The notes under the pieces: generated by a model
What the model was told of the DNA's origin: nothing
Seen by the model: the letters and a program-made list of their open reading frames with translations, nothing else
Databases searched by the model: none
Shown: positions 13,406 to 49,250 of the stretch, in pieces
How positions within the stretch are numbered: the first letter of the stretch is position 1
Layout: each line of letters begins with the position of its first letter
Position numbers and translations under genes: made by a program
From: Pseudoscleropodium purum
Taxonomy: Eukaryota; Streptophyta; Bryopsida; Hypnales; Brachytheciaceae
Assembly: GCA_963969395.1 (NCBI GenBank)
Contig: OZ017795.1
Location: 21,495,063 to 21,559,062 of the forward strand
Direction of reading: 5' to 3'
DNA: 64,000 nt

Positions 13406-13888
13406 AATTCACAATTGCGCAACAAAAATTGTGGAAGAAAATGCGCAAAGTAAATAGCAAAACAAACCAGGAAAATGAAGATGTTCCAAATCCTAATTTC
13501 CAAACACTAGGCCTTCACACATGAGGCTAACAAAGGCCGTGCAATGTTGCAAGTGAGGGCATGGAGATGTGGGTTTGCTCCAAGGTGCCCTCATGGTCTA
13601 GAGATAACCAATTGTGAGGGCTAGGCCTCGCGGTATTGTTACATTGCGTGAGTTACCACGGAAAATTTAGAAAAAGTTAGGAAATAGTTTAGCACCTAAC
13701 AACGTAAGCAACTTCACAACAGGTCCCACCAGCTCTCTCTTTCGCACAAAGTCGTGCACAAACCACCTACACCAAAAGACTGTGGGGTTTTGTGTGAGTT
13801 TAGTTTGAGTGTAGTTTGACTATTGGACAAAGTGACTTAGTTTTTTTTTTATTATGGAGCTTCTAAGGAGGGGACGGCTACTAGATTC

Positions 13889-15111: not shown

Positions 15112-15837
15112 TTAGCCGCTAGAATGAAAATGCCTCAAAATTCTCCATCTATCCTTGAGTGAGCCAAATGTTTGCTCTATCACAACTCGTCCAAAATTCG
15201 TAGACTTATCAAACCGTTTTTTCTGTACATTGTTAGGGGCCTTCCAATTCTTCATCAAATAGGTGCAAATTAGATAGGTGGTGTCTCCAATAAAAAAAAA
15301 GGTACAACTAACACCTCCAACTTGAATCACAAGTTCTTGCAAAATCTTTTTTTTTTTCAAATCCTTGTATAAACTTGAAACTTTGAATTGGCCACCATTA
15401 TGCACTTCTCCAAGTTGGCTTGTACACATATTCTCCAAAATCTTCAATGAAATGCATACTGCTTGTAGTACAATTGAGTTGAATTTTTTCGTATTGAAAA
15501 AAATTGTAGCAACTAAAGTAACTCTTCTACTTGGATTCTTTGCTAATGGTATATGTATTCCATCAATTACTCCACAAATGTTGGACAAATCCGTAATTTC
15601 TTCAAAATCCAAGATGATACTATGAAGCTGGTCTCCACTTGGAATGCTAATGTAGTGACTAAATAATTTATCACCATCCATAAGTATGTCACATACAATG
15701 TCAAAATATTTTCTAATAGTTGAAGCTCCAATCCTAAAACAATTAGTCAAGTGCTCCGGACTATGACCATGTGCAAATCTATAAATCACACATGCCACTA
15801 TTTTTCTAATTTCCATTTGAGGCTTCACTTCATTCAC
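15112..15837 (-). pseudogene. PIF/Harbinger DDE transposase (DDE_Tnp_4-like), probably inactive
   Basis: The 241-codon frame has the Harbinger nuclease layout. A helix-turn-helix-like start contains LTNCFRIGASTIRKYFDIVC. The first catalytic Asp is in CGVIDGIHIPL and the third acidic residue is in VVIEQTFGSLKDRWRILRHF. Where the family has a His-Asp pair for the second catalytic Asp, this copy reads GEVHNGGQF (codon AAT at 15397-15399), so that Asp is replaced by Asn. The frame ends at FHSSG, short of the usual C-terminus. The gene is oriented towards ORF1 of the same element. Confidence 0.8.
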
Positions 15838-16472
15838 ACATACTTCTCAAGAAAAGAGTCAACATGTTTAACTAATTATCAAATGCATCATAACTCATTC
15901 TATAAAACTTTTTGAACTTATTGTCGTGCATCTCATTACTTGATCTCCAAACTACTCTTTCTACAAAGCTCTAATGTGTCACTTGCCTAGGTTCTATCCA
16001 AAAGAGGCATGAAGCATGTGCTTTCTTCCTTGTGCTAAGCAAAAACAACAATGGAAGAAAATGGAAACCTATTGAAGTCCCAAGCACCTCATTAGCCTTT
16101 GATTTATAAGTGGAAGAGTTTGCCATTGTCATGGAGAGCATCATCCACATAAGCACAACTTGAGTGCAAAAAGAAGGCCCCATTTTTGCTCACAAAACTC
16201 TTCCAAATCATTTATCAAAATGAATTTGATGCTCAAAACTTAACAAAAAGAGAACTTCAAAAACTTGCCACTAAACACAAAATGTAAGTCCAAAAAATCA
16301 TCTAAGCCTTTTCTACAACCTTCACTATTGTTTCCAAAAAAATTATGCAAAAAATGAATAAACATACCAAGATAATTGCTCCCAAAGTTCAAGCTCTCCC
16401 AAGTTGCTCTTCCAAACTCTCCCAAGTTCCAAGCGAAATAGCTTTCAATGATTGAATTGTCAAATCCCCACA

Positions 16473-20676: not shown

Positions 20677-23600
20677 TTATAAATGCATTGGATGTATCAA
20701 CGACCTCTTATCAAGCTTGTGCTTCTTTTCGTAGCACAACTTTCCAACCCGGTCTTCTTGTAACGTCTGAAAAGAAAACTTGAGTAGCTTGGCTTGGGAA
20801 AATGAATGATTGAATGGGTCTGCCAAGCGAGGCAATTTGTGCCGAAAGTTCACTACAAGGAATCCAGCCTCGTCCTTCGTATACATAGTGTTATCTCGAT
20901 TGTCTATGGTTTTCATCCACTCACAATGCAGCAAAATTATCTTTGTACTCAATGCACCATAATCCAACTCAAGTACGTCTTGAAGTACTCCCACGTAGTT
21001 CACAGAGGATTTCTCAACATTTCCAGCAGTCTCGTGGAAAACAGATGCTACCCCACTGTTGTAACTCAACAAGTATCTTGTACTGTCATCCTCCACTCTA
21101 AAGTGGTTGCCAAATGCTGTGACTCGTGCATATCTAGTAGCTCTTTGGGACGGCTTTTTTTTTAGGAGAAAGCAATCCATATGTTCTGGGTTATGCAAAT
21201 CCAAGTCTGACTCTCTTACTTTGCGTTGCATCCAATCAGCTAAGGATGGCATTTCCGGATTCTCTTGTAATTTAGTCCTCCACATCTTAGCCAATCCACG
21301 GAAATACAATTAAACCCAGAAGCAGACGGTCCGCACTCCAAAATAGACCCAGTAGGACGCGTTGTCTAGACTTTAGGAGTAATTCCCATCAGGTAGTGGA
21401 AGTTCTATGACTTCTCCGTGACTTGAAGTAGTCACTTCTATGTCGACTGCAAGTCATTCAACGTTTGCAAGACTTGAAAATGACTCCACTACAACTAATG
21501 CAAAACTACACAAGATTCCAGGTCAAAATGTCCTTAGCTTACACAAAGGACTTTACAGTTCAGCCATACTAGGGATCACAGTATCACATGGAAGAGTGAA
21601 CTCCTTAACTTACATGAATGGATCCTGCATGGCTGCAGCATTCGAGAGCATATAGTGGTGGGCCACATCTCTCAACTCGGAACTCATCACGTACGGCCTT
21701 CCTACCCCTTGCAAAACTTCTTCAGCATCTCCGTATTCTTTGTCTTCATCCCATACATGCTTGTGAGAGCCCTCAAAGTTGTGTAGGTACTCCGTAATGA
21801 ATCCAATGCATTCATCTTTCAAGTATCCCTTTGCCATGCATACCTCTGGTCGTGCCATGTTTCGGACGTGGTTCTTCAATACTTTCATGTAGCGCTCCAC
21901 TGGATACATCCACCTTGCACTAACTAGACCACACAAGTCCAATTCCTTTGCCAAATGGTACGGAAGATGAGTCATTATGTCAAAAAATGAAGGTGGAAAT
22001 TCGATCTCCAAAAGAGCCATGCTCTCTGCCGCATCTGCTTCTAGAGATGGAAAGTTTGTTGGATTGTATACCTTTGTGCCCTGATGAAATACCCTACACA
22101 TTTTCATAATAGCCATACGAGGTCCTGGTTCCATCAGATCACAAAGAGCTAGTGGCATGATCTACTCCATCAGAATATGATAATCATGCGACTTTAGGCC
22201 ACCAAAATTCTTCTTGTGGAGACACTTGCTAAGGTCTAAGGAATACCCCGTGGGTGTTTTCAAATCTTGTATGCACTTGACAAACTTTTCAAACTCCTGT
22301 TCGGACAAAACATAAGATGCTCGTGGCTTCACCATCTTCCCTACCTTACATGGGTGTGGAGCGAGCCACAAGTGCCTCCTGACATTTTGGTGTTGTAGAT
22401 TCCTTCACACTTTGACTATGTCCTTCTTCCATGATATGGTTTTCAGAAAGTTCTTGGCAAGATTCATTTTACAATGCATGAGGTCTAGCATGTAGTGAAT
22501 GAGAAGACATTGGCAGTATAGACATGACCAATAGATTAGGTACAAGTCCACAGTCACAACCTGGTTACATACTAGTCATTTCGTAGTCAAACGTTGACAT
22601 ATCCCTATAATGGTAACTTATAAATGACTTGGGAAAACTAGCTGGTGACTGGAAAGCCACGTACGAGTCCCATCTAAGGTTTTCTGCTCAAAAAGGCCAA
22701 AATTTAGAGACACTTACCCTCCAGTATGGCAATCTAAATAGAATGCTCAACCGCTACAGGCCAAAATTTTTGGAGGGGTTCCCTGCGGCACCTTCTCTGT
22801 TTCCGGTAGCTTTCTATGCCTCACACTGCAGTGCGTGCTACATTTGTTCCTCCATAGTCACAGCCCAGGGTTTCGAGTGGTTTTCCATTAATCCGTCAAA
22901 GTGGTCCTTCATACCTTCTGATCTATAAGGATGATCTTTAGGTAGCCATTGATGAGTCCTACTGTAAGTTTGCTTGGACAATTCAATAGAATGCTTAGCA
23001 CCAAGGTCTTCACCACACCATGGACACGTTGCATACCCTTGATGATCAAATCCTCCAACTGTGCCATACCCCGAGAAGTTGTGTATAGTCCATAGCAACA
23101 TAGCACGCAACTGAAAAACCTTTTCACCTGCATCCTTAGTGACGTCATGGGCAGGGACCCCGACCCAAAGCTCCAACAACTCCTCCACTAGCGGCTCTAA
23201 ATATATGTCAAACACATCACCCGTCACTGACTCCCTCCTTGGAATTAAGAGTGCCAACAAAATGAAAAACTTCTTTGTGCTCAACCAAGGGGGTAGGTTG
23301 TAGTTCAATAGCAACACTAGCCATGTTGACCATGATGTCCTATTTTGCTTGTAAGGGTTCACTCCATGAGCTGCTAAGGCAAAGTGAACATTCCTAGGAT
23401 CTCAAGCAAAGGAGGGATCCACATTTTCCTCGAAATGCTTCCAAGCTTTGGAATCGCAGGGATGCTTGACGAGGCCATCACCTCCGTCACGGTTGCTCCG
23501 ATTCTCTGCATGCCAAACCAAGAGCTGTGAGATTTTTGGATTCATGAACATGCGCTGCAGTTTGGGAATGATGGGGAAGTGCCACAATACCTTCACTAGA

Positions 23601-27489: not shown

Positions 27490-27554
27490 CCAGTTTGTTT
27501 TGCTATTTACTTTGCGCATTTTCTTCCACAATTTTTGTTGCGCAATTGTGAATT

Positions 27555-28139
27555 GTGAAGAGTATCACGAAAGCTGGTAGGAAGAATTTGAAGCGGGAGG
27601 CCTTGGAGCACGAGGTGGAGGAGCCTAAACCCGAGCACGTGTTGATACGCATTGTAGCATTGCACGGTGGCAACATCATGGAAGCAGAGAACGCGGCGGG
27701 TGATTCCACTCTACGTTTATTCCCTACGAAGTTCCAAAAGACAATTTGGATTAAGACGGGGACCATCGTGGTTGTGGATGAGGTAGACATGGAAAAGGCC
27801 ACGGAGGCTCAAAACAAGATCATGGGTACGATCTCTAGAGTCTTGCTTGAGAATCAAGTGCAGGCACTTCGCAAGTCTGTTTCCTGGTGGCTTGAGTCTT
27901 TTGAGGATGAGAGATTAGTTTTTGAGGATGCAAAGGATGCTAAAACTAGAACCTTGAAAAGAGAAGATTTAGGGGAAGAAGATGCTTGCATTGGTAATGA
28001 CGATGATGAGGATGAAGATAGGTTGCTACCACTTGAGGTATATTCTAATCGGCAACATGCTATGAATACGTACGAATGTGCAGAATCAAATGAGAGTAGC
28101 AACGATAAGGTAGGCTATAGCAGGCTTCCTCTCCCATAG
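27555..28139 (+). CDS. EIF1AD: EIF1AD-like protein (right copy)
   Basis: The coding block is identical to the minus-strand copy at 12821-13405, including the GTG first codon and the donor-like AAG/GTAGGC before the final residues. The two copies point away from each other across the 14-kb spacer. The 5' flanks differ beyond position 27493: here the upstream sequence is a CACTA-like end, while the left copy has single-copy-looking DNA. The copies may therefore use different promoters, and at most one is likely to keep the original one. Confidence 0.78.
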   Translation: MKSITKAGRKNLKREALEHEVEEPKPEHVLIRIVALHGGNIMEAENAAGDSTLRLFPTKFQKTIWIKTGTIVVVDEVDMEKATEAQNKIMGTISRVLLENQVQALRKSVSWWLESFEDERLVFEDAKDAKTRTLKREDLGEEDACIGNDDDEDEDRLLPLEVYSNRQHAMNTYECAESNESSNDKVGYSRLPLP

Positions 28140-28366
28140 TTCAGAAATTGCTTTTTTTGCTCTTGTTTAGAAAATGCATTTCTTGAAAAAAATGATTCTT
28201 GACATATTGGTTCTTTATCAACATCTAGTCACTTGTTCACCCACTTTGTCTTTGTACTATGATTGCATGTGTTCCTCTACTTCAAGCTTAATATCTTCAA
28301 TACCTTATAGATATGTCAAATCTCTTTGCTCTGTGATTTTGAGGCACATTTACTCAATACTTTTGC

Positions 28367-28386
28367 AGGGTTTAGGGTTTAGGGTT
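28367..28386 (+). repeat. Short plant telomere-type motif (right copy)
   Basis: AGGGTTTAGGGTTTAGGGTT directly follows TTTTGCAG. If that AG is used as an acceptor after the EIF1AD-like donor, the repeat would encode the last residues (GLGFRVLN then stop) in phase. This is a possibility, not a demonstrated exon. Confidence 0.7.
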
Positions 28387-30257
28387 CTCAACTAGTTTTG
28401 TTTGGCATTAAGAGTGTCTAAATTTACATGAAAAAAACTAGGCACATCAAAATGACAATACAACAAGATTGAACACGCTTATTTTTGGTCGTTTGTTTCT
28501 ATCTAAACTCAACATTAAATGATGTCATGAAGATTTTCTATACATCCTTTAGTTCTTGGTGTGTTTAGGTTTGTGGACGTGAGAAGAATTTTTATTTGCA
28601 AGAAGTGACCTTACTTTGTGTGCATGCAAGTGAAGAGATAGTGCTCTTATAGTTTGCACATATGGTCATGATGTGCATGGATTTTCAATGTATAATTGAG
28701 AGTTTTCTACCATATGCTTGAAGCCTTAGGCTCCTTGGCAACATTAGAAGAAGTAGAAAGGTACGGAACTTAAGAAACACGAATTGAATTGGGCCAACAA
28801 ATGGAGCTAAAACTGGACGCTTTGCTTCCAAATTGTAGGTATTTCTCAAGACCTAAACCCTAAAGAAGCATTGGATGAGGTATACTAATCTTCATGCGTT
28901 GTTTTGGCTATATTGTGTTCAATATGAGGACAAATTTGTTTGTTGAAAGAATTCATTTGTACTTTTGTCTGGTGTGTTGAATTTGAAGGTGCTTTTGTAT
29001 TGAATGAATTTCATTTGTATTGTTGCAGAACGTGATTCCAATGAGGAGAAGGTGGCAATTGGAAATTGATAATGAAAGGTACCATTTTTCTTAAGGCATT
29101 AGAACCCATTATTGGCCTTGCCTAAATATCAACACCTAAAGTATGAGCATCACTAGTGAAGGAAGCAATTGGGAGAAGTCATTGAACATGTGACCTTTGG
29201 GAATCTATAATTCTATTTACTCATTTTTCTCCTTTAAACATATACATAACCTTCTTATCAATTATTGGTCTTCACCTCAAATGAAGTGAATATCTCTCCA
29301 TTTATGGGCAAAGTTCTCTTCTTCTAATTTTGCATGCCTTCTTTTGTCAACTAAGAAACACAATTTTTCCCTTTGTCCAAAATTCTAGTCAATTTTTGCT
29401 CTATTGCTACAAGTGGCGATTATAAGTATGTACACCTTAGTCTTTAAATGTACTTGATAAATGAATACGAAGAATGGAGCAAGATGTTTTGGAGGTTGTT
29501 GAAACAATTCAATCAACCATTGGATTTCCCTGTGCACTCTCTTTAGGTTTCATGTGTTTTTTGAAATAAAATAAAAATAAATTCTTTTGCTGTGAGAATT
29601 CATTGTGCTTGAGGATTTATTTCAGATGAAATTGAATTTCCATGTCAAGTTTCGAGAGGTTCATGTCACCCTAAACTGAACCAATTCCAGATGACATGTG
29701 GAACTTTTTGAGCATTTCAATAGTTTGTTTTTTCTGGTTTTGAAGTTAAAATTTGAACACTTTTACAATGGCCAGTTTTAGGCACCAATGAATATTGTCA
29801 TAGCATGCTACTCAATTTGGGGCCTTGAGCACCACTCCTGCCCTCGTACTATTTGTTGGTGTCCAAAGACCACCATTCTCATTGGCAACTTCTATTCTTG
29901 AGTTTCAAATCTTTGAGTAATAAGCTTTTTCTGTCATTGACATGATCAGACTTCGTATAGCAATTCTAATTAATTCAGTCGTGCTAGCCAAACACCAAGT
30001 TTCTGATACCAGAGATAAGGCAACACATTTCCCTATATCTTTTGGGTTCCATAACCAACCATAACTTCCAATTCCACATGGCAATGTCGTGGCATTCTTC
30101 TAAATTGATCACCTCATATTTACAAAACCTCTTCTCTTGTACAACTGCGCTAATCCTAAGAAGAGAAACAAAACTGTCGGTTGAAAGTATCTGAAAACGG
30201 ACATCCTTAGGTTCCTCGAAACCAAGTTGGTCACAGATATGATACAAATGTGACATC

Positions 30258-32218
30258 TCAAGGCATTTGAGACTTGTTCCTTTTGGTTTCAGTTTGTATG
30301 GTCTTCGGGCCTGGATTCAAACGCTTCAGGCGCTGAAAGTTTCTTCCAGCTCCCATGTCAAGACTGCTGCTTGATGATTCTGGAACACAGAAAATAATCA
30401 GCTCTTGAGATTCTCAACATCATACGGAACACTATCATGACTATCAAGATCAGTAGGGTTGAAACATCACCCATGCACAATGGAGTCTATTAATGGCACA
30501 CAAATGTGTAGTCTATTAATGAGGACTTTAGCTTCAATTTCAGAAAAAGTAGTACTTCACACCTTCCCATTTTCCAAATCTAGAGGTGCTAAGCATCAAA
30601 TTTCCTGGATGTGGCTAAAATTTCAGACAGAAGACGTTTGTGGACATGGGTGCATTTAAAAAATAGAAAGGAAATCGCACCCACACATTAATATTGTAAA
30701 CCACTCAACAGCTGAAAGCCACAGGAATGGGTTCCTTACATTAACGGACAAAAAAATACTATCCATTGACATGGAAAAATCAATTTTCATTGACATAAAA
30801 AAATTCAAGAAATGCAGTTGGTATACCTGTCTTGAGAGGCAACGGGTTCTCGACCGATCCATTTGTCAACATCACCAAGGCCACCTTTTTATTACCATCA
30901 CGGTTTAATCCCACTGTGACAACATGTTCTTTCTTCACCTCCGGGACTGAACAATTTCCTTCGAAGGGTTTCATGTAACAAAACCTGAAAGCAAAGACGC
31001 TTCTATTAAATGGCAGCATCTCATCGATCTCAACCAAGCATAATACTAAGAGCCACTAAATGTACATCAATGTACTAAGTCCATGCAAAAATGCAGATAT
31101 GCTGTGAGACACTCACCAGGCACCAATCAGGCTATCAGCACAACAGCCTTCGGGAAGCTCCCGCCACTTTTCGCACTTTTGGCACTGAACCCATTCCGAA
31201 TCTTTCTCAAGCTTTTCACCCTGCTTTAAATTCTCCTTCTGAAACTGCACAACCAAATCCAAAGAATCCTCAGAATTTCGAACTCCTTCAAGGCGTCCCT
31301 TTAAAGCTCTCCTCAAATGCCGCTTGTATTTTTCTATTGAATGGACTGAAGCATACAAAGGAGCTAACAAAGGTATCAACAGAAACGCAACCAAATGCAA
31401 CATCAATTGTCTAGAAGTAGGAGATCATGACCAACCAGTCCAAACTTATCGTATTTATCATCCCAATATTCGCAAAAGGACTTCTCCAGCCACTCTTCCA
31501 ATTTAGAGAATCTATCACTATCAGTGAACCCTTGCTTGTTATTCAGCACCCCCACTTTCCCATTACCAAAATCCTGCCACCATAACGAAGTTCCACAATT
31601 TCTAAAGAGTTTTTTTGGATAACAAGATCGAAATTAAAAAAATGACATAAAATATGGTAATGCCAAAGTACAGCATTGAAAAACAAAATTTGGGTGTAAC
31701 GGAATCCATAACCCCAAGAAAGGCTTAGCAAAAGGGCAAACTTCTCAACATTGCAGAACAAGCCGACATTCAGAAAGAATCCTGTGAAACAAAAATATCC
31801 CCAATCAGATACTCATAAAGGTGGATACCATTATGTCAGTAACATCCATGACTCCAATAACTCCACGACCAATGTCAGCACTATGCACCATCGCCCCTAC
31901 TCGCTTGTAAGCCTGCACCCAACATCAGCCATTTCAACTCTTCAATAAAAACATCATCAACCCAGTGCCTACCATGAACAAAAGAGAGAAACTATCGCAT
32001 GTTGTGAAAAAGGACTATCGACTCTAAGAGAGAGTAACCTCGATAAGCCGTCCATGCCAGTAAAGAAAGATCCCGCAGTTCCCACGGGTATATTCCGTTG
32101 GTCGTTTCCCAAGGGTTAGAGGAATCAACTTATTCTTCGTCGGATCCTTTTCATGAATGAAAAGATACTCGAACTTCTGCATGTTCTGCAAATTCTTGGC
32201 CAAATTTCTTGAAACCAC
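30258..32218 (-). pseudogene. MORC: 5'-truncated MORC copy (exons 8-13 only)
   Basis: Exons mirror the intact gene at 32039-32218, 31829-31912, 31432-31573, 31117-31345, 30827-30984 and 30258-30379. They would encode about residues 440-743 with the complete CW finger and C-terminus, but not the GHKL ATPase. No MORC promoter or exons 1-7 are present beyond 32259. The open frames are undamaged, in line with recent origin. If transcribed from a foreign promoter it could make a CW-only protein, and any transcript would share long sequence with the functional gene. Confidence 0.92.
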
Positions 32219-32302
32219 CTGAAAAATATCTTTTAAAAATTTAGAATGCAACATGACCTATCCACATAATATGATGGGCACTAAATTCAAGAATTTGTCA
32301 AT

Positions 32303-34398: not shown

Positions 34399-34420
34399 AT
34401 GTCGACTTCGTAGGATAATA

Positions 34421-34563
34421 AACAAGAAATCAACGATTTAATCCAAGAAGATAATGAACAAGAAATCAATGATTTAATCCAAGAAGATAATGAACAAGAA
34501 ATCAACGATCTAATCCAAGAAGATAATGAACAAGAAATCAATGATCTTATCCAAAAAGATCAT
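34421..34563 (+). repeat. 36-bp coding tandem repeat, four units
   Basis: Four 36-bp units begin at 34421, 34457, 34493 and 34529 and are nearly identical. In the frame starting with ATG at 34399 they encode the 12-residue unit NEQEINDLIQED. That frame stays open to 34671 (90 codons) except for one TAG at codon 5, which suggests a real coding history. Confidence 0.85.
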
Positions 34564-35416
34564 GAAATTAGGTTTTGTGGCTCTTCCATGTCCATGTCCA
34601 GGCCACATGCAAGGAGCTTGTTCAATTTCCATGTTCAAGTGGGCATGCAAAAAGTCTTGGAATTATCCTAAAAAGAACTAGAAGATTCTGATACTTAATT
34701 ACTATACATGCCAAATATTGCTCAAGCACTGAGCTTCGGATCTAGTCAAGTTGCCAGAATATTGGAGAATCTTTCTAATGCTTTCTAGCACTGACCTTTA
34801 CCATAACTTGAGATTTTTTTAGAAAAGGATAGAAGAACTAGGTCTTTCTAATAATTTTGTGTCATCTCTCTTTCATTTTGCTTGTGTCGGTTGGTTTAGT
34901 GATCTTGCCATTTGAACAAGTCTTGTTGTATATCTCTATAGCTAGCAACAAGGGAAATAGCAAAGACGAGGAGTCAAGCCAAGGATAGTATAGAAACCTC
35001 TGACCTACAACATCCTCCGGTAGTTCAAGGAGTAGATGAGCAAGCTTCTGAGGTTTGATATTACATATTTTTTTTATTTCTTTCAATTCAATGTTTTCAG
35101 AGGCTCATGTCAAACGACCTCACATTGGATTGTATTTTGAAGTTTGTAACTTCTAATGCTTGAACCAATGCTGCACTTGCTTGTCGTTTGTCATGTCATC
35201 GATGCTACCTATTAGTCTATCATGATTGAATTTTTTGCACCATGGTAATTTTCATCTTCTGAGTATGACCTCAGTCTCGAAAGCATCTTCTAGCCAATTC
35301 CTTGGGGACACCAGTTCTTTGCTTTAAAATCTTCAATGCAATTCATGAATCTTCAATTAAGTTCGTAAATCTTCAATGCAGCTTGTGAAATACTATAGTT
35401 TGTAAATCAGCTTGAC

Positions 35417-35502
35417 AAAAGTAAGAGTACCAAAAGGTATCCTCCGGACCTTAGTTAAGTCTGACTGGTGTCCAGTGGATACCTTCTAATACTTTTACTT
35501 TC
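35417..35502. repeat. Near-palindrome, hairpin family copy 1
   Basis: The 5' half AAAAGTAAGAGTACC...GGTATCC pairs with GGATACC...AATACTTTTACTTTC in the 3' half. The centre reads TTAGTTAAGTCTGACTG, like the centres of the other family members. Confidence 0.75.
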
Positions 35503-35554
35503 TATTACTATGGAAAGAATTTCATTTTTCTAAAATATTTGATTCTCTTATTTG

Positions 35555-35885
35555 CATGGTTGTCATAGTGGACAGACATCCGGTTTGCCCGTCCATCCAA
35601 TTCGCCCGTCCGTTAGAGGTCCCGCCCGTCCGATATAGTCAACACATAGTTGACTTTTTGATAACGGAAGAATAGGCCACGTGGATGCCATGTAGATTAA
35701 GGAACATGCTGGGCGCGGACGAGATCGTCAAGGCCCTGGATTTCACATTCTGAGGTGACATGTCATTCCGCAAAATTGCACAAGTTACAAAATTAAAGCC
35801 GTTCGGACCGTCCGTCCATCCGGTCTGGTTTGCCCATTCGTCCGTCCCGTCCGATGACCCTAACTCGCCCGTTATGACAACCATG
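35555..35885. mobile_element. 331-bp hAT-type MITE with 8-bp target duplication CTTATTTG
   Basis: The ends are CATGGTTGTCATA and TATGACAACCATG, a perfect 13-bp inverted repeat. CTTATTTG flanks both sides (35547-35554 and 35886-35893). The interior is rich in CCGTCCG-like motifs, as in the other two MITEs, but the terminal sequence differs, so this is a separate family. It has no coding capacity. Confidence 0.92.
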
Positions 35886-36389
35886 CTTATTTGTTTCACC
35901 CTAGCTTGTTGTATAAATCAATTTTAGATTGTTTGGAAATGTGTAACTGCTTGATCAAATCAACACATCTTGTACACCTTACATCGACTACTCCAATATC
36001 TTGGTAGACTTACAAAGTGACAAGAATCTAGATTTAGAATTTTTGAACTTGTTGAAAAATGATTTTGCTCAGTATGTTTAGGTACTCAAGTGCTCAGAGT
36101 TGGAGTGTGCTCAGGTTTAGAAGCTCGTAGATGGGCTTTAGTTTGAGATCAATTTTGAGGTCCACCTTACATTAATTTGAAATCAAGAATATCAAATTTT
36201 TTTATTTTACTATGTTTAGTACTTGACTCTTGCTCTAGCCAAAACTAGTCTGTCAATTTCCAAAATTGTAATTTGAAAGAATGAACTAGGACTTTGTGAA
36301 AATTATGGTCTTTTGATTTGATTTTGAAATTTTTTTTTAATGTGGAGTTCAAATGAGCAAGTTTGTCTGTTTGTGATGAATGCGATCAT

Positions 36390-36475
36390 GAAAGTTCAAG
36401 TACCGTAGGGTATCCTCTGGACTTCAATTGGGTTTGACTGATGTCCAATGGGTACCCTACGGTACTTTCACACTT
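36390..36475. repeat. Near-palindrome, hairpin family copy 2
   Basis: GTACCGTAGGGTATCC in the left half pairs with GGGTACCCTACGGTAC in the right half around a centre reading TTGGGTTTGACTG. It lies 31 bp left of the hAT-type MITE at 36507. Confidence 0.8.
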
Positions 36476-36506
36476 TTTTTGACATCCAGGCCTTGGAACA
36501 CCATAT

Positions 36507-36849
36507 TAGGGTTGACAGGACGGTTGGACGTCCAGGACGTTCGGACGCAGACGCTGTGTCTGCAGCGTCCGCTGACATTCGCGGTCCCGGCGGAAGCAGT
36601 GTCCGCCGGGACCGCCCCGTCCGCTCCGATACCCGTCCACCCTGGTACGGCCGTCTGATCGACATGCGGACTGATGTGGTCCGCATGATCTGGGCGTCCG
36701 CCTCGGGCCGTCCACCCCACCCATCCGCCCTGCCCCGCCCGTCCGCCTTCCAACGGCGGGAGGGACGCTACGTTCGCTGGCGTTCGTAAGAACAGACGTC
36801 CAGATTACGGATGCTATTTTGGGGCGGACGTACTGATTTGTCAACCCTG
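36507..36849. mobile_element. 343-bp hAT-type MITE with 8-bp target duplication CACCATAT
   Basis: The element starts TAGGGTTGAC and ends GTCAACCCTG, with CACCATAT at 36499-36506 and again at 36850-36857. Its terminal 20 bases and its interior (GTCCGC and CGGACG motifs) match the element at 17556, so the two belong to one family. The first base T instead of C is the only mismatch in the 10-bp terminal inverted repeat. Confidence 0.92.
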
Positions 36850-36863
36850 CACCATATGGATAG

Positions 36864-36948
36864 GAAGTTTGAATAACGCAAGGTACCCACCGAACATCAA
36901 TCAAGTTTGATTGGTGTCCAATAGGTATATTGTGGTACTCAAACTTTC
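36864..36948. repeat. Near-palindrome, hairpin family copy 3
   Basis: The left arm begins GAAGTTTGAATAACGCAAGG and the right arm ends GTACTCAAACTTTC around a centre TCAAGTTTGATTGG. Pairing is weaker than in copy 6, consistent with age. It starts seven bases after the right target duplication of the MITE. Confidence 0.7.
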
Positions 36949-37234
36949 TGTCATCTTTAAACAATATCAATTTGTTTTAATATTTCACTCACTTAATTTG
37001 CTTATATATTTGATGCATGCTAAATTAAAATGACCTTCTGTTTGGTTTTAGCTCTAGAGTTCTTGGTGATTGAAATATGCATAGAATTTTATTAAATGAA
37101 GATTTTAAGCTTTATTCTTTAAGAATATATAAGAAATAGACAAATTGAAGGATAGGTATAAGCTTCAAAGTAGGATGAAATTGTGCTTGCGAAGTAAAAT
37201 TCACTATAAATGTGGTGAAGATGAAAAACTAGAC

Positions 37235-37322
37235 CCAAAGTGAAAGTATTGCATGGTTATCCAAAGAGCTTAGTCAGGTCTTAATAGGGTTTGAGGGTCC
37301 CTTTATAGTACTCCCATTTTTT
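37235..37322. repeat. Near-palindrome, hairpin family copy 4
   Basis: The left arm CAAAGTGAAAGTATTGCATGG pairs imperfectly with the right arm ending TATAGTACTCCCATTTTTTG. The centre reads TTAGTCAGGTCTTAATAGG. Confidence 0.65.
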
Positions 37323-37516
37323 GTCATTTTACCCTTATTGTGTAGTCAATTATCAAGTTCTAATAAAGATTTTTATAATTAACTTGGTGTGATATTACCT
37401 TAAATGCCTTCACCTTTTCTAAGCAAAATTTGTGATGATATTTGTTTTCTTAATTTCAAGTACTTCACTACAAGTTTGATGAAAGACACTCATTTTCTAT
37501 GCAAATTTTCATCATT

Positions 37517-37609
37517 GTCCAAAAGTGGAAGTACTATAAGGTTTTTCCATGATCCTAGTTGGGTCCGAATGGGTAGTTGGTGTCACTTGTAGTACTTCCA
37601 TTTTTTGTC
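37517..37609. repeat. Near-palindrome, hairpin family copy 5
   Basis: The left arm has AAAAGTGGAAGTACTATAAGG and the right arm has TTGTAGTACTTCCATTTTTT, with a centre AGTTGGGTCCGAATGGG. Confidence 0.75.
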
Positions 37610-37816
37610 ATTCTATTTTTATATTTTACCAATTATCTTATCTTGATATTGAATTCTGAATATGATATTTTAAATAAAGAACATGAATTCTTTTTTTCAT
37701 CCAAACAAGGATTCTCTTAAGATTTATTAAGATTTAATCTAAAGTAGTTCATGACTTATTTGAACTTGTTTGAACAAGGTAGATGTCATCTACTTTCTAA
37801 CAAAGTCTTCATACTT

Positions 37817-37910
37817 GACCAAAAGTGGGAGTACTATAAGGTACCTCCAAGACCCTATTTGGGTCCGACTAGGGTCTTGGGGATACCTTGTAGTACTCCC
37901 ACTTTTGGTC
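37817..37910. repeat. Near-palindrome, hairpin family copy 6 (best preserved)
   Basis: The arms are 37817-37857 and 37870-37910, 41 bp each. They pair at 38 of 41 positions, and the three differences are all transitions. The loop is 12 bases, TTTGGGTCCGAC. An RNA copy would form a long, nearly perfect stem of the size of a plant microRNA or small-RNA precursor. Confidence 0.92.
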
Positions 37911-38754
37911 CCTTCTTTATTTTATGGTCATTTCAATTTCATTTAGTATGATGAATCATGCAATAAATTATTTCCTATTTCATTTTTTTGACGCTTTCAA
38001 TGATTGAATTAACATTATTATTTTTTGAATATGCAGTTATTCACAATTGAAGAACACCCTTTGTTGACTCCACCCCCCCCCTAATTCAAAGTGCAATTAT
38101 CCTAGGGATAGATGTATGTGGCCGGTCAGAGATGATCATTTGTGCCAAAGCAATTGCCCACATTGGATGTGAGATTGTTCATCATAAACAAGTTGAACTA
38201 GACTTGGTAAATTTAGATGACATTCTTGACACTTGTGACCATGCAGTGGAAGCCTCAAAACAGTAGGGTTAGTAACCCGAGAAAATGCAAGTTGAAGTAG
38301 GTTGTGTGAGCACATGAGAATACTAATAAAAACAATAGGAGGAAGCCCATGTTCTCACTTGAGAGTTCCAACACTGAATACAATTCTAAAAAGCAAACTT
38401 CTATTTCAATTTCCAGTCCAATGTTAGAAGACACTTGTGATTGTGCCTGTAGTGCTAATGTGAATAGGCATGAGTTGGTATTTATTCATTTGAGCTTAGG
38501 TTCAGATGAAAGTATTAACATTGATTCTATATAAATGAAATCTTCCTATTCATAAAGCTTTTTGAAATCATACCTTGTCTATTATATGTATTAGTTAAAC
38601 TTTTTCAATTCATTGTGGTATTTAAAAAAATTGCATTCATATTTTAGAAAATTATTCGTGTAGTAAGGCTTACAGCCTAAATGTAGTTGAAAAAATGAAT
38701 AAAAGTTGTATTTATCATAAATTGAATACCACTCTTTTCTTTGTAGATGGAGGA

Positions 38755-39425
38755 GCTGTCATTAGCTTTAACTTAAGAAGAACATCATGGGATTAAAGGA
38801 TAGACAAATGATGCAATCCACCTAGAGATTGGCATGGATGAAGACAAAAATCTTCAATATACGGTTGGCTTTGATGAAGAAGAAGGCAAGGAATTGTTGG
38901 AGGATGAATTCTAGTGTTTGCAATGATTTGACTTTGTGGCCATTATAAAGACTTTGAAGATGAGGCTAGAAAAATATTCTTGTTTGCACATCCCTTTACG
39001 TAGACTTGTCCCAATGAGTATGATGAGGCCGACACTTTCATCTAATCTTAAAAAACTTGAGCAGGAGTTCGTTTTTGGATATTGAGAAGGTGTTGCTGTA
39101 TTCTAATGTTCTATGTGTCAACAACAAATGAGGTTGGGGAGAGTTTGGACTTCTTGGTTGAAGAGATGAACAGCTGGGGATCACTATGGAAGAAAGAAAA
39201 TAATGATTTCATTCAATATGTGGAATCAATTCCAGAGTTGAAGTTCATGACGAACTTGAAGTTTTTTGTGTGTGATGGGAACCACCGACGTTTATCATGG
39301 ATGAATCACATCAACAATGTATGTCTAGCTGACCCTCTTTGTCACTTTGCAATTGACTGCATTGTTCTAGATACAAAAGGGAGAATTGAGTTGGTCATGC
39401 AAGTGATACATGATATTAATAAGTA
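38755..39425 (+). pseudogene. ParB/Srx-like exon block of the decayed gene
   Basis: The frame passes through LHIPLRRLVPMSMMRP and LKKLEQEF, then after a frame change through FVCDGNHRRLSWMNHI and ends before a GTAAAA donor at about 39426. ParB-type domains place a short strand with I-P-x-x-x-L/I-x-P first and a Gly/Asp-x-His-Arg motif at the core, and DGNHR fits the latter. Several in-frame stops (TAA, TAG, TGA) are present. ParB-like domains bind nucleotide or DNA, and in phages they are often fused to DNA methylases. Confidence 0.55.
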
Positions 39426-40802
39426 AAAAAATCTATTATTTCATAAAAAACTATTTTGGTATATATGTTTTTTGAACATAATGTGATTCCTATATTGGTA
39501 TATGTACATTGATTTTATTTTTTATTTTAAGATCCATAGAAGATTCTCACGTGAAGACCAATTTGGTGCACACGCTTTACTAGGTGCAAAAATACAGGCT
39601 TTTTTCCTTAGAGAGGTTTCTTGCAATGTCAAGACCTTTTAAGAGAAAAAGATGTGTTGTCCAGACTTCTGTGAAAAAATTGTGGTATTCAATGCCTTGT
39701 GAAGTCTTCACAGCATTTGTTTTCTAGGTAAGAAGTTAGCATATTTAATTTATGACCTTATTTTTTGTTGAGTTTTGAAGTTCTAAGATTATTAATGTGC
39801 TTGATTATTTTAATACAATTCAATTTTGACATGTTTGGTTTTTTTAGCAAGAGATTGCACAAGAAGTAGATCTATATTTAAAGAAGTACAACAAAGTGGC
39901 ATCCTTTGAGGAGAAGTATAACTCTAGGATTGTTGATGCTATGAGGGCAGGTGCAAAAGACATGACCCGGAAATTGTATGTGAAAATGCAGAAGCTTTTG
40001 GCCGTGGCAAACCTTGCATTTGGACCCAAATTTTTGGAAGAGGTGAGATTTTGTTGTAGATGAATAATTTATTGTGTCATTGTTCTTCATCATCTTTTTT
40101 TAATAGTCTAAATTTCTTTATCTTATATTGCAGATTGAGAAACATTACACTTCAAACGATTTGCTAGAGATGACTTTAGAGAAATTGCAATGGTTGCAAC
40201 ATGCAACACCTCCGTTGCTCAGAAGATCAAATTGATGAAGTGGTGGAACCTTTCAAACAACTCAAAAAAAGCTAGGCAGTTCTTTTCGAAGCCAGTTTTT
40301 AAAGATAAACTAGGGGCATTTCTCAACAAATTTGTTTGGTGGTCAAGGTAAGTACTTTTGTTTATTGTATTTGAAAAATTTTCATAAATAGTGTTTGTTT
40401 TTAACTCAGTAAGCCAGTAATGATTTTCAATTCACTTCTTATAATTTTTACAAACATAAAGAAAATACTTGGATTTATCATACAGATTGAGGATTTTGTT
40501 CTAAAACACTTTGAGAATGATGTGAAAAAGGACAATTTGAAAATCAACTACAATGTCCCAATTCAGCTAGAATATCTTCAGGAGTACATTGATGGTTGGA
40601 GAATAAAACTCTGGGATTAAGCATTTGGACCTGCTTTCAAGGGATCAAATACCTTTAAAAAATTACTCTTTTTTCAATTACAATAGATCAAATCAAGTTG
40701 TTAAACGAGTTCTTTTTTGGTATTAATTTTAAGTTATATTATGTGCATAATGGTTTTTTCAATTGATGAATAAAAAATTTGTAATGTTGTTCTTTGAAAT
40801 AC

Positions 40803-40890
40803 CGAAAGTGAGAGTACTAGTAGAACCTCCCCAAACCTAAGTCAGTTCCGACTAAGGTTTAGGGGGATCCCTTTGGTACTTAAACTTTTG
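40803..40890. repeat. Near-palindrome, hairpin family copy 7, inside an intron of the ParB-like pseudogene
   Basis: The left arm starts GAAAGTGAGAGTACTAGTAG and runs to CCTAAGTC. The right arm starts GACTAAGGTTTAGGGGGATC and ends TACTTAAACTTTTG. The loop is AGTTCC. It lies between exon-like blocks 40488-40618 and 41087-41632. Confidence 0.8.
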
Positions 40891-41929
40891 AACTTCTTAG
40901 AAATAGAGAGCTTGATTTGTGTTGTATTCTAATGAGTATATTATTTTCCTGCTTGCACTTACATATTGCATTTCAAAGATTCTTATCTACACATGTTTAT
41001 TAGGTTGTAGACATTGTCATTATTTATTGTGTTCTTGGGCTGAAATTTTGAATTTGCATTTCATAATTATTTCCGTGGATTGGTCCAGTTACTACAAGCT
41101 TGAGCTTCTTGCAAAGAATGCTATAGCACGAGGGGATCTTCCTCCATTTTTGTTGACATGGGTGGACCATAGCTTGGCAGAATACATATATACCACTAGC
41201 TAGCTCCGGACATTCACAACAGCTCATCTTGCTAGAGGAGGGTGGTATCTTGATTGTCTAATGACATTCACTCATCCTTTTGAGAGTGTTTATTATAAGT
41301 CTTTCAATGGAATTGGTGTTATAGATTTGGAGGTTTCCAAATTTGATGAGATGATTGAAGCAAGAAAAAAGAAGGCTATTGCAAGGAGGATGCGGGCTGA
41401 CAAAAAAAAAAAAAAAAAACAAGAGATTCGAGCAAAAAAAGAAAAGAGAGAAGCTGAGCACTTGCAAAAGCTGGTGGAGAAAGAGGAGGCAAAGGCCAAA
41501 GGCCAAAAACAAATCGAAGGAAGTGGCCAAGTTCCAGCATCTTCTACGATGGATCAAAGCTCTGAGATGCAAAGTGGACCTCGTAGTAGAATGAGAGGAA
41601 GGCCATATTGCAGGAGTTCACAGAAGACATGATAACTCAAGGTATACAAGTCATAATCCTTGATGATGATGACGTCACCTCAGAAGAGTTAATTCTTAAT
41701 ATATTGATCATAGACGTTCAAGATGACGTGCAGAAAAAAGCGCCAGACAACTACATTGAAATAATGAACTTCTTGAAGAAGGTAAATTTTTCTTATTTGA
41801 ATGTTTTGAATACATAGTATAATTGTATGATTTTATCATATCAAATTATAGAATGATGTGAAAATTTAATGTAGTAGTTATTGATTGACAAAAAATTATC
41901 TTGTTCCTTTCCAAATGGTGCCAGAGAAG

Positions 41930-42950
41930 GCTCAAACATATGACAATAAAGTTAACCATCATTTGGGAGTAGACCTCATCCTATTTGATTGCTAGGAGAA
42001 TTTGCTAGTTCTGGAGGTCTCCTTTCCAATGCATGTGGTGCTTAGATGGAACTTTGACCTAGAGTATGAGGCCCTCAACAATGTATTTTTCTTTGCAAAA
42101 ATGCATTTGGAGGACAATGGATGCATGATTATATTCCATTCATGGTGTGCTAAATCAAAGGGTGTCATTATGGGCTTGTGTGAGGCTTATCCTAAATTGG
42201 TTGTGAAGGCCGAGTGGTTGGGCAACAATCAAATGCACTTAACATCTACAGTAGACAAAAGCACAACAATATGAGTATTTGGCTTTTTAATTTATATTTG
42301 AAATCATTTTTCAATGCAGATTTTGTAATTTTTTTTAATAAGTATTATTTTCTATTGCATGCACACTATGAAGTTTGGAATCACCATCTTGGTGAAGGAT
42401 CTTGGTGACAATGGGAAGTCAAATTTCTCTTACAATTTCATGGAGGCACACAAAAAGGCAAAAGTTGACCTTCGACAAGATGACATGTATCTAAACTATA
42501 CTACGAAGGACACCATGTTTGTAAACGAGGCAACGTCAATTCCATGGAGGGGGGCTCAGAAAAAGGATGCAAGTTTTCTATAGTTCTTCATTGAAGGAAC
42601 AACAAAAAAATGAGATTTAGTTTTGGACTGCACAATATCTATGGGTTAGTTATTTCTATTGGATTGTGCTTTCAATTGTTATTTAATGTAATGAATTCTT
42701 AAATTGATAAATTCCATATTTCAATATGACAGGTTTAAGCATTACAACATGTCGCAGCATTGGTCACCACATTGTTGCACTAGAAAAGTAGAAGGACCTT
42801 TTTGACGCTGTACTTCTACCCATAAGGAAGCCTATTGTGGCCACGATGACAGCTGAAGTCTTACAACCGCCTCCTCAAGTGATGGCTTTACAAGATCCGG
42901 ATGTCATGAATGTGATGCCTCGGAAGTTTGTTCGGAAGGATAGACCTAGT
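41930..42950 (+). pseudogene. Amino-methyltransferase-like exon blocks of the decayed gene
   Basis: The first block reads VDLILFDC followed by a TAG, then DGCMIIFHSWC. The second (from about 42360) reads SIPWRGAQKKDASFL and FFIEGTTKK, then DLVLDCTISMG at a plausible donor (42640). The third (from 42731) continues TTCRSIGHHIVALEK and FDAVLLPIRKP. DLVLDCxxxxG followed about 20 residues later by HIVALE is the SAM-binding motif I plus acidic loop seen in DNA adenine-N6/cytosine-N4 methylases. The catalytic D/N/S-P-P-Y/W motif cannot be read in this copy, which has DC followed by a stop. Confidence 0.6.
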
Positions 42951-43280
42951 AAGTTTCCACAATTTTGACTTTCTTTTCTATATAAAATTCTTTAGGTTCT
43001 ACCCGCTTGACATGGTTTCACTTGCATTTGCAAGCGTGAGGGAATGACATGTGGACTTGTATCAAAGAAGAAACAAAATCTTTTCTTGAGTCTAGAAAAG
43101 TCTTTTAATCTTTTGGTGTATGCCGAGCAAATGGCATTGGCATTTACAAAGTTTGGTACCCTTAAACTAAAACCTATGAAACCTACATATGCGTTCAATG
43201 TTTTAAATTTTATAGATGATTTAGCATCTGAGGGTAGAGAAACTTCTGATTCTTCGAGCACCGCAGATTCTACAACTTAG

Positions 43281-46200
43281 TCTATAACGACTTAGTCTTA
43301 TGAAATATATATATCTTTTGAGCAAAACTATTATGTGTTGATTTATATTATGATTGGATTTGTGTATTTTATATCTATAATTCGAATGTCGGTTTTTTTC
43401 CTTTTCACTTTTGCATTTCATAATTTCTAGAGAATTTGTTTATAATTGTTTTTTAAAGCCCAAGGCTTTTTCTCCATCCAAAATCACTACTAAATGCCAT
43501 TTCTATAACTGTTTACCTTTAAAAAATTTAATTTCCTTTAGACATGTTTAATTGTAGATCTTGTAATAAATTAGTATAATAATTTGTGATAGAAATTGGT
43601 GTAACTTTGACTACATTCATTGCAAGATATTTGATTTAAAAAAAATTTATAATTAAATTAATTTAAGTGACTTAAATCTTTTTGAAATGAACTAATATTT
43701 TGTAAAAAAAGAAATTTACATTCACCCATGGTCCTAGGTACTTCATCCATTTTTTTGAATAAAAAATTCCCGCTCATAAGCTCACAAGTTCACACTCAAG
43801 GACTCGCATGCTAGAAACCTTGACCCTAATATTGTCAACCTAGCATCCTATACTATTGAACTAGCACCCATCTAGTCAACCCTACATGTACCACATGGCA
43901 GATCGAAAGTAGTCGGGACCCTCATGTGCCCACCAATCCAAACAACCAACAGTCTCTCTATCGGATTCCCAATCCCCTTGGCGGTTCTTGTTACTCAATA
44001 CCCTGAGCGATTTCCGATATCCTCTATCAGTATACTAGGGTCATGTTTGATGCTTTGGTCAATTTAGTCCCTTGTGGGCTGGTTGACTGGGTTATTATGT
44101 TAAACAATTTTTGATTAATCAAACATTAAGGATTAAACTGAATTGATTTTCCAAAAGAATATACAAACATAAAATTAATGGATGTGATATAATAAAGTTC
44201 AAGCTAAACTAAAATGGTTTAAATGAGATTTTTAAACCATTCCCCAAATTAGAATCATAACATAGAAAAATAAATCATTGAGCTCAAGATATGACCAAAT
44301 AACAAATGATTCTGAAGAGGATCTTATCCAAAATCTACAAATCTCGTTCTTTCATGAACCGGCTTTCTCCAAATATTTCCTTGTAAGCGATGGGAGTGAA
44401 AATGTTAAGTTGTCCGCTTAAATGACTGATTTTTTAAGTTGTGGAGTCAAAGCTTTGCAATGTGGGGACAACCCCAAGCATTAACGAACAAGATTCCACC
44501 CTTAATTTAGAGAATTTTGGAAAGAAATCAATTTTTGATTGGGTAGAACTTTTGCATATGGAAGCAATCCAAGGAAATCTTATTTAAATCTTAGAGGAGG
44601 TATACAAGACAACATTTAAACCGAACTTTAGGATTCAAGTTAGACCAATTTTGGTATTCAAATTCAAAATCTAAAGGAGGTATGTAGGACAACGATTAAA
44701 CTAAACTTTCGACTTAAATTCTTAAGCACAAGTTTCAAGTTCTTAGTTTTTAAAGGAGGTATGCATGACAACGTTTAAACTAAACTTTAAAAACTAAATC
44801 AAACCATCCTTGTTGTACAACATGAGTTGGTTAAGTATTTGATTTTAAAACCTTTTGGCAAGATCTAGTCCTACTGCCTTAAGAGTTTTAAACCAAGTAC
44901 CTGTTCAATGACAAAAGATATGAGTTTGGGAATCCAACTTCCAACACTCTAAAAGAAAACAATGATCAAGAATTTGAGAGTTTCGTGAACTTATCAACAA
45001 AGTTGGAACAATTTTAAAGGAACCCAAAGTCCTTAAGACTCTTTACTAATACAAAGTAAGAATGGAAGTAGAGATTTAGTCCCCCCAATAGTGATGGTGT
45101 ACCAAGAGAGAATTGTATTTAATAGAGTGTCGATATACCAAGTAGATTTATCCGACAATATTGTCGATACAAGAATGTGCCAGAGCCTTGGTAGTAAGAA
45201 AATGAGAATAGTGAGAAATAATGGATTTTAAGAAAATGAGTTTAGAATAGGTTGTGAGAAACAAGGAGGGAAGGCCCTTATATACTCATGGAAAAGGGCC
45301 CACCTCCTCGTTTACTACGAGATATTTTGTTTTTTCCTATCTAAATAACTTCCTAACTAACCTAAACTACTCTAAGATATGTGTCCAATAGACCTTTCTT
45401 TAGTCAACGGAAAGGTTCTAAAACAAGTTCTTGAAAAGCCTCAATTAGCCTTAGGAATAATGCCTAAACCAAGTTTGTTGACTTTTGAAAGATTTTGGGA
45501 ATCAAATCCTAATTAACTCTAGATATTTTATATTTAATCTAAAGTCAACTCCTAAATAACCCTAAAAAAGTCAAAATTGACTTTTTAAGATAAGATTTGA
45601 AGATCTAATCAAATTAAACCTTGTTTCTTCCCCAAGCCATCTAAGAATTTACCTTTACTTACCACAATTTATGCTAAAAAAGTCAAATTATGAGTTGACC
45701 CTCGTTATCTTTTAAGAAACAACTCCAAATACAAAATGAATTGTACCATCATGTCCAAAAAAACCAAATTAGTTGAAGGAACCCCCTTCCCCCTTTTCCT
45801 AAGCCATTCTTTAGTGGAAAAAACACTCACAATAATTTCAAAGGAAGGTAAAAACTCTAACTTCTGGAATTCATGGTTTTTGAAGAATTTGAATGGTCAA
45901 GGTTGTTCAAAAGATTCAAAAAAGTAAGAAAGGACCCCTTGCTTGTACAAATCAAACACCGTTAGCTCTTGGTTTGCTAGTCAACCCACCGCCATGTTGT
46001 AAATTCTTGGAAAATTCAATGTCATTGCCAATTTTGGTACTTTTGCCTATTAGAAAGTTTTCAAACTTGACAAGGCACTTATTTAACACACAAAATACTA
46101 ATCTAATTTTTAGTGGGATTTTACCACACTCCAAGTAATTTCTATGAATTTACTAGTAGCTTCAAATGCGGTTGATTTTCCATGGAGTCATTATGACAAC

Positions 46201-47579: not shown

Positions 47580-49250
47580 TTCAAAGGCTCGTAGAGATAA
47601 TTTTGCTCGTTGTAGTGTGTGTGATAAACTCAAGCAACTTAGGAGTGCTTGCACTCCACATTTAAGGGCACAAAAAGTATGGACTAACAAATTAAAAGTT
47701 CACATTCAAGAATAGAAAGCGCATAGAGAGCTGTACTATACAAATTGTTCTTTCTCTTAGAATTATCCTTAGAAGGTTTTCACCATCATGCAAAACAAAA
47801 TGGATCACTTGAAGACAACTTCTCCACATTTCCCTCATAAGAGCAAGGCAAATGATTCTTTCATGAAGTTGCTGGTCGCTTTTACAGGCATGATTGCTCA
47901 TGGTCATGGAGACGTGCAATATGCACACTATGGCTTGGACATCTTCCCAACAGATTCCAACCACACCATAGGATCCATTGCAAAATCGTTGCGAGATCTT
48001 AAGTTTGAACTGAAGGTTTCTTCACGTCAATTGTTTGATACAGGGGACATGATTCATCCATTGTCGAAAGCCATATTACATGGCTCAAAGATTTGCATGG
48101 ATTTCTTACTATTAGGCGTGAAGAGGTTGTTGAACCTCAAACCCTCCCCCCCCCCCCCCCCCCCCCACTCTATTTCTTCAACTAGACAATGCTGTTGGAG
48201 ACAACAAGAATCATTAGGCTTTTGCATTTTGCTCCCTCCTTGTATACAAAGCCGTTTTTCGTGAGGTATTAGTTAATTTTCTCATTGTTGGGCACACTCA
48301 TGAGGACATTGATGCTCTTTTTGGTCATTAAAGCAACAAGTTGAAGACAAATAACTACCCTACACTTCCAAAGCTGATGAAGTCTTTTATGGATTGTGAA
48401 GCACAACCTATAATCCCTCATTTCATTGAAGAGGTTCCTAACTTCAAGCAATTTGTGGAAGGATACTTGCATACAGGTGATGATTCTCTAATGGATCATT
48501 CTCAAGCTCAACAATTCAAGTTTTACAGGGATTCCAACAAATGGCCCTTGATGCAATACAAAATTCTTTATATGGATGCCGATTGGTTGCCCAAGGAAAG
48601 AGGGGGAATTTGCTTGTGGAAGAAGACAACAAATAGGCGCCCTAAAGTACCAAAGGGTAGTTCCAAACCTTTGGTTCCGCAGCTAATGCAAGGCTTTGAT
48701 GAGGTTTACAAAGGTTTAGATGGGTACATTGTATTATAGGGTGCAATGGCAAATCAAGAATTATTTGGAGATTTTTTAAGGAAGAATGAGATAGTGAAGC
48801 GATATTAGGAAGGTGTAAGAAACGCTTTCAATGAACCTCTAGTGAGGCATGAAGCATTGCAAGATGGATTTTGGCCTCATTCGGTAGTCACCAATGAAAT
48901 CTAGGGTCAAGGCCATGATGATGGTACAATATGTGTGGAGTTTGTAGAAGATGCACCCTTTGTTGGAAAAAAATGTGACCGTCTTGCTTTGTCATTCAAT
49001 GTTTATCGTAATGTATATGCAAGTTACTTTCTTGTGGTACGTCCTGCTAATGGTAACCCTGTCCATTTTGGCTTGCTCGAGCACTTACGAACCTTAATTT
49101 AGATCCAAAGCATGTCAATTCCATTCAGTTGCAATATTGGACTCCCATATCTTTTCAGCACATTGACAAGGACACATATTCAAGGTGGGACACCAAAGTA
49201 CCAAACAAGGAAATTCATGGTGTGAAGACAAGGCCATCTCCACTAGCTAA
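47580..49250 (+). pseudogene. Decayed DUF7869-like gene
   Basis: Successive frames give ARCSVCDKLKQLRSACTPHL, then KMDHLKTTSPHFPHKSKAND and GMIAHGHGDVQYAHYGLDIF, then after a poly-C tract VGHTHEDIDALFGH-like sequence, LPKLMKSFMDCEAQPIIPHF, KFYRDSNKWPLMQYKIL and QDGFWPHSVV. This order matches the DUF7869 family of large plant and protist proteins, whose biochemical role is not established. Stops interrupt nearly every block, and several are TAG where Gln is expected from context. The part downstream of 48739 lies in the same general frame after a stop. It may have been part of a mobile element. Confidence 0.65.
48146..48166 (+). repeat. 21-base poly-C tract
   Basis: An uninterrupted run of 21 C follows ACCCT inside the decayed DUF7869-like gene, where it would encode polyproline. 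The minus strand is a G21 run capable of quadruplex formation. Length error in the assembly is likely at such a run. Confidence 0.9.

Follow-up and report, generated by a model that had tools for sequence, protein, structure and literature searches.

The giant DNA transposon Sola1 of a brown alga (21.5 kb) specifies a protein of 1104 amino acids (aa) in which ParB and methyltransferase domains are combined and which is predicted to produce N4-methylcytosine (4mC) or N6-methyladenine (6mA) (PMC12477816). Accessory proteins of the ParB-methyltransferase kind thus are already published for algal transposons, and the kind is known. The VANC protein of VANDAL Mutator-like elements (MULEs) in Arabidopsis possesses a demonstrated anti-silencing activity, with targets in noncoding tandem repeats, according to the published outline (PMC5735166). 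Here, a gene with ParB/Srx-like and DNA amino-methyltransferase-like segments is described from a window of 64,000 nucleotides (C1:21495063-21559062) of a 313-Mb assembly in 52 contigs, the same assembly serving for all searches of the gene's own genome. The gene spans about 38.3-43.3 kb of the window and is almost certainly a transposon gene; that it is a decayed old copy of an accessory gene of a DNA transposon with terminal inverted repeats (TIRs), taking identity and architecture jointly, is very probable. Membership in a TIR transposon was the point missed by an earlier sequence-only reading of this DNA.

The element resembles Sola1, as far as the published description allows comparison, in that both domains are found in one long protein (1104 aa, and here at least 1108) inside a giant DNA transposon, a likeness of architecture in which the ParB part is recognized here by motif. 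It differs, by description only, in being smaller (16 kb), in its 10-bp target duplications and degenerate catalytic motif, and in having a plant-like host. Fungal transposons in which a TET/JBP protein accompanies the transposase offer a further parallel in carrying a DNA-modification-type protein, but as summarized by their authors that protein is a dioxygenase and the elements belong to other superfamilies with target duplications of 2-8 bp (PMC12730594). Elements of dinoflagellates and charophytes likewise bear a DNA methyltransferase, but are described as retrotransposons with a C5-cytosine enzyme of demonstrated activity (PMC5890265). A search of titles and abstract openings of open-licence papers recovered no report of such a protein for a land plant. 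The host, the 10-bp duplications and the degenerate catalytic motif look new.

The + strand of the window carries IPLRRLVP (38990-39013) and CDGNHRRLSWM (39271-39303), followed by DLVLDCTISMG (42614-42646) and HIVALE (42768-42785), where the sequence-only reading had placed them. The motifs are not due to chance, as the window DNA is collinear with a gene at another site of this genome, at 59-63% over 38879-40721, 41087-41806 and 41966-43382, with E values of 2e-75 to 1e-14 per stretch at the protein level. In young copies of the family, the ParB-like exon and the nine exons after it can be joined in phase. Copy X015 possesses nine introns, all with GT-AG ends, and an open frame of 1108 residues with no stop; X006 also lacks stops and has one broken donor, and the remaining eight young copies contain 1-35 stops each under the X015-type model. 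Both segments are placed within one gene model, as the earlier proposal of a single spliced gene anticipated, and they are joined in one predicted protein in the homologues X015 and X006. This protein would be some 1100 residues long or more, its ParB/Srx-like segment being followed by a middle part, then by a lysine-rich linker and finally by a permuted amino-methyltransferase-like domain. No homologue was recovered at E 0.01 among 5.8 billion proteins (one search scored the best 7996 candidates), and the collection therefore may lack such plants.

The suggestion that the gene had spread as a repeat was confirmed in its own genome. A 99-residue ParB-like query produced at least 150 matches (150 of 263 candidates were scored), many of which contain stops and some of which have long open frames with no stop, and a 103-residue query from the methyltransferase exon produced at least 147 (150 of 214 candidates scored). 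Linkage was assessed with 147 of the 150 ParB-like and 146 of the 147 methyltransferase matches, the second pieces of split matches having been excluded. For 76 of 147 ParB-like matches, a methyltransferase match lay downstream on the same strand, at a distance of 1.5-9 kb (median 2.8 kb), compared with one in reversed order, none on the opposite strand and a mean of 0.35 with random placement. Thus, the two segments belong to one unit. The distribution of the ParB-like matches is uneven: 35 of the 147 listed are on contig C49, for which six would be expected from its length of 12.7 Mb (p 2e-17), and the density of 2.75 per Mb compares with 0.23-0.49, among the matches listed, on nine other long contigs (C45 excluded). 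Contig C49 perhaps is a repeat-rich or sex chromosome.

Ten copies of a young subfamily, 97-98% alike, were retrieved with their flanks. They share a sharp 3′ end, ...CTCACACGCTAGCAACCCT(G), beyond which the flanking sequence differs copy by copy; this terminus is present in all ten, exactly in nine and with one mismatch in the other. The opposite side of the element bears a related inverted terminus, CAACGACGCTAGCGTGCGAGCAT, and 17 of 23 bases are identical between the ends which accordingly form an imperfect TIR. Both termini were located in 12 elements (nine of the ten young copies and three others). Eight of these measure 15,997-16,464 bp and four measure 19.8-36.0 kb, the longer ones presumably containing nested insertions; the element of X015 is 35.6 kb. 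Perfect 10-bp target duplications (ATTGGTAGCA, AGTCTCAACA and GCACTAGAAG) border each of the three elements for which the 5′ flank was fetched. Overall, the near-identical 16-kb copies, common termini and 10-bp target duplications demonstrate that the family has been mobile. Separately, the 5′ terminus pattern of old copies, with up to three mismatches, occurs 175 times genome-wide compared with no occurrence of the reversed control, and these 5′ termini represent a broader set of elements whose ends are related.

The window copy is an eroded version of this gene. The first convincing match to the element begins at ~38.75 kb, and a weak earlier one at 38334-38447 (+; tblastn 39% over 44 aa, E 0.058) is a possible remnant of e1, an acidic exon upstream. 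The ParB-like exon is divided by a frameshift into a first part with IPLRRLVP (38750-39082, +), assigned by tblastn with the X015 protein, the motif and the reading frames, and a second part from CDGNHRRLSWM to HDINK (39109-39423, +) that is 53% alike to X015 (L015) over 105 aa. Between the ParB-like and methyltransferase parts are remnants of e4 and e5 (39848-40351, +; collinear tblastn and open frames), of e6 (40486-40662, +; 54% over 59 aa, E 1e-14) and of e7 (41090-41787, +; 52% over 177 aa and 51% over 65 aa, E 1e-57), the last of which includes a conserved GGWYL region with the lysine-rich linker after it. The methyltransferase part begins with e8 (41930-42271, +; tblastn E 2e-75), which spans motif IV (VDLILFDC*EN) and the next strand and was listed as C1:21537025, at 54%, in the methyltransferase-exon search. 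It continues through e9 (42365-42646, +; tblastn and motif), ending in DLVLDCTISMG as the first half of motif I, and e10 (42729-42965, +; tblastn and motif) with HIVALE in the motif II region. The last exon, e11, is represented by a remnant that runs to the stop codon (43062-43280, +; tblastn to 43241 and an open reading frame at 43011-43280). A degenerate 3′ transposon terminus at 43773-43823 (+; 76% over 51 bp, E 6e-5) matches ...CTCACACGCTAGCAACCCTG of the young copies. The frameshift that splits the ParB-like exon, together with several in-frame stops, agrees with the decay ascribed to this copy earlier. The left limit of the extent proposed previously (34399-43280) is not upheld: 34399-37810 has no match to the fetched portion of the element (the 5′ 6 kb of which was outside the comparison), 34414-34566 is a 36-bp tandem repeat, and 37811-37916 has short matches to an intron-internal repeat. 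The right limit is slightly short of the degenerate element end. A search for the 5′ end of this copy did not locate it.

ParB/Srx proteins have as hallmarks an I-x-L-x-x-L-x-P start and a DGxHR box with an N after it. The majority pattern of a 17-copy alignment (IPLCxLVPMPMVRP, FYVSTTNEA, KFFVCDGNHR and MHDINK) resembles the ParB/Srx boxes and includes these hallmarks. A ParB identity of the segment is probable at the motif level, and the published algal two-domain protein of near-equal length adds weight to the label. The ParB-like part has no relative in viral contigs and no close relative in phages, in which one chance match was recorded at E 0.8; the gene annotation of the Wolbachia phage WO record names neither ParB nor a methyltransferase.

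The second segment was examined with profiles and structures. The METHYLTRANSFERASE part of X015 matched PF01555 with an E value of 2.5e-5 (24.8 bits, just below the 26.7 cut-off), compared with 0.0014 for the whole protein, and the same part matched PHROGs at E 7.2e-9 and, in the PDB, DpnA at 2.1e-5 and CcrM at 0.057. The window read-through copy matched DpnA at E 0.09 only. Pfam detected the methyltransferase and no ParB in the intact copy, and found neither domain in single window pieces or in the window read-through copy. Identity of the methyltransferase part with phage records was 22-29% among the 30 listed of 245. These comparisons support methyltransferase homology and a methyltransferase-like fold. 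Motif IV precedes motif I, both by exon order and in the DpnA alignment, which is the permuted beta-class order that the sequence-only reading had recognized.

The canonical motif IV of amino-methyltransferases is [DNS]PP[YFW], for example DPPY. The equivalent in the young family is DLQE (D-L-Q-stop in one copy), in the window D-C-stop-E, and in four old copies EYPN, EYPD, DMPK and DIPD, these four being a small sample of the many older methyltransferase-exon matches. The catalytic aromatic residue therefore is absent in all six lineages (the young family, the window and the four older copies); Asp or Glu is retained at the first position, and Pro at the third in each of the four old copies. 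Motif I reads NTGATG as opposed to FxGxG. The beta-class enzyme M.HpyAVI/DpnA (PDB 5hfj, 5hek) resembles the transposon protein in sequence and in the equal order of its parts, but differs in the catalytic-motif aromatic that the latter does not keep. An inactive or unusual enzyme is a fair reading of the domain from its motifs, and catalytic inactivity is somewhat favored. The alternative of an active 4mC/6mA methyltransferase which marks the DNA of its own transposon, as suggested for the algal relatives, draws on the homology to amino-methyltransferases (PF01555, DpnA and PHROG), the acidic first residue and third-position Pro of motif IV in the old copies, and the low ratio of nonsynonymous to synonymous substitution (dN/dS) of the ParB-like exon. 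However, with the aromatic missing in six of six lineages and the altered motif I, this alternative is unlikely, and the DNA modification proposed in the sequence-only reading is not sustained. Given the loss of this aromatic from motif IV, the domain is more likely to bind DNA or cofactor than to transfer methyl groups.

Variation in the young family is spread equally over codon positions (113, 95 and 101), and the copies thus decay freely after insertion. Among private changes of single copies, 308 of 408 are G-to-A or C-to-T. The C-to-T changes present in no more than three of the ten copies amount to 0.37 per site at CG, 0.44 at CHG and 0.09 at CHH, a CG/CHG bias that is the mark of plant-type cytosine methylation. 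From this decay and from plant-type CACTA genes, we infer that the host genome is plant-like. Between subfamilies, the ParB-like exon has dN/dS values of 0.05-0.28 in the eight of 22 pairs for which dS was computable, dS being saturated in the other 14; the low values suggest that the protein probably was useful to the lineages that moved. Variable-number tandem repeats are situated upstream of the gene in eight of the ten young copies, and VANC targets in VANDAL elements likewise form tandem repeats, the basis for an anti-silencing model. According to this model, the protein would bind the DNA of its own element via the ParB-like part and the repeats near its gene, the methyltransferase part would serve DNA or cofactor binding rather than methyl transfer, and the bound protein, like VANC, would keep the element from silencing or mark it. 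VANC, as described, also is an accessory protein of a DNA transposon in a cytosine-methylating plant and is associated with noncoding tandem repeats (targets there, variable here), but anti-silencing was shown for VANC and would apply here by analogy. We know of no ParB or methyltransferase domain in VANC. A DNA-binding anti-silencing factor is the best guess for the role of the protein, with a probability that falls somewhat short of even. The fuller picture, in which a prokaryote-like ParB-methyltransferase in a large plant transposon became a catalytically dead anti-silencing factor that recognizes the element's own noncoding tandem repeats and was selected across subfamilies, VANC-like but of wholly different origin and in a superfamily with 10-bp duplications and no recognized transposase, is doubtful as a whole.

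Several observations weigh against an accessory gene of a mobile TIR element with this architecture and role. Among the matches listed, 71 of 147 ParB-like matches are without a linked methyltransferase match, which may reflect decay or the limits of the list, and no 5′ end was found within two mismatches for X009, the tenth of the young copies. No in-phase junction could be made between the ParB-like exon and the acidic exon e1 upstream of it, and the start of the gene model therefore is provisional. The ParB/Srx-like label given earlier stands for the motifs and not for profiles: ParB was undetected with Pfam, NCBIfam, PHROGs and PDB profiles, and hhalign was negative in a weak test with only two ParB sequences. 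In four of the eight pairs with a dN/dS value, dS exceeded 2, and the function proposed rests on analogy. Finally, no transposase was identified, in the sequence read (which excludes ~6 kb of the 5′ half of the element) or in genome searches for the MULE, hAT and KDZ types. The MULE transposase domain PF10551 matched the genome 22 times, never inside the 12 elements; hAT matches also were lacking from the 12 (150 of 664 candidates scored), and the KDZ search gave zero matches with no positive control registering. Target duplications of MULEs are 8-11 bp, a range that the 10-bp duplications of the young elements fit. On contig C40, an old ParB-like match at 17868870 (-) has a MULE transposase match ~7.5 kb upstream on the same strand, at 17876452 (-).

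The low dN/dS and the spliced gene would also fit an ordinary family of host genes, nuclear in role, amplified by chance and not belonging to a transposon. In the young subfamily this reading is refuted by the 16-kb units, whose inverted termini are paired and flanked by target duplications, and the 150 or more matches, many with stops, and the methylation-type decay leave it highly improbable overall. Viruses can carry ParB and methyltransferase genes, but remnants of an endogenous large DNA virus are a very remote prospect given that viral contigs and phages yielded no relative of the ParB-like part, that the gene has nine or more introns and that it lies in a defined 16-kb transposon unit.

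The transposon gene shares the window with other features. A perfect 4772-bp inverted repeat (8696-13467 and 27493-32264, arms 14 kb apart) contains an eIF-1A-like gene (PF01176) and is either a duplication of recent date in inverted orientation or an artefact of the assembly. A CACTA-type transposon at 20677-23401 (-) carries Transposase_21 (3.9e-47), DUF4218 and DUF4216, and a DDE_Tnp_4 (Harbinger-type) transposase fragment is located at 15112-15846 (-; E 1.4e-10). A broken gene at 47773-48739 (+) has DUF7869 in two frames, both under the curated cut-off, and an RNA polymerase Rpb2 domain 7 fragment is found at 58959-59354 (-; E 1.1e-11).

There are few accessory proteins by which transposons deal with the DNA methylation of their hosts, and most of them are unrelated to one another. 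With the family described here, the ParB-methyltransferase kind published for algae is extended to a genome with plant-like CG and CHG decay of repeats, and the young copies of the family are available for experiments. It raises the question of whether a methyltransferase fold that does not catalyse can still be of use in the contest between transposons and silencing.

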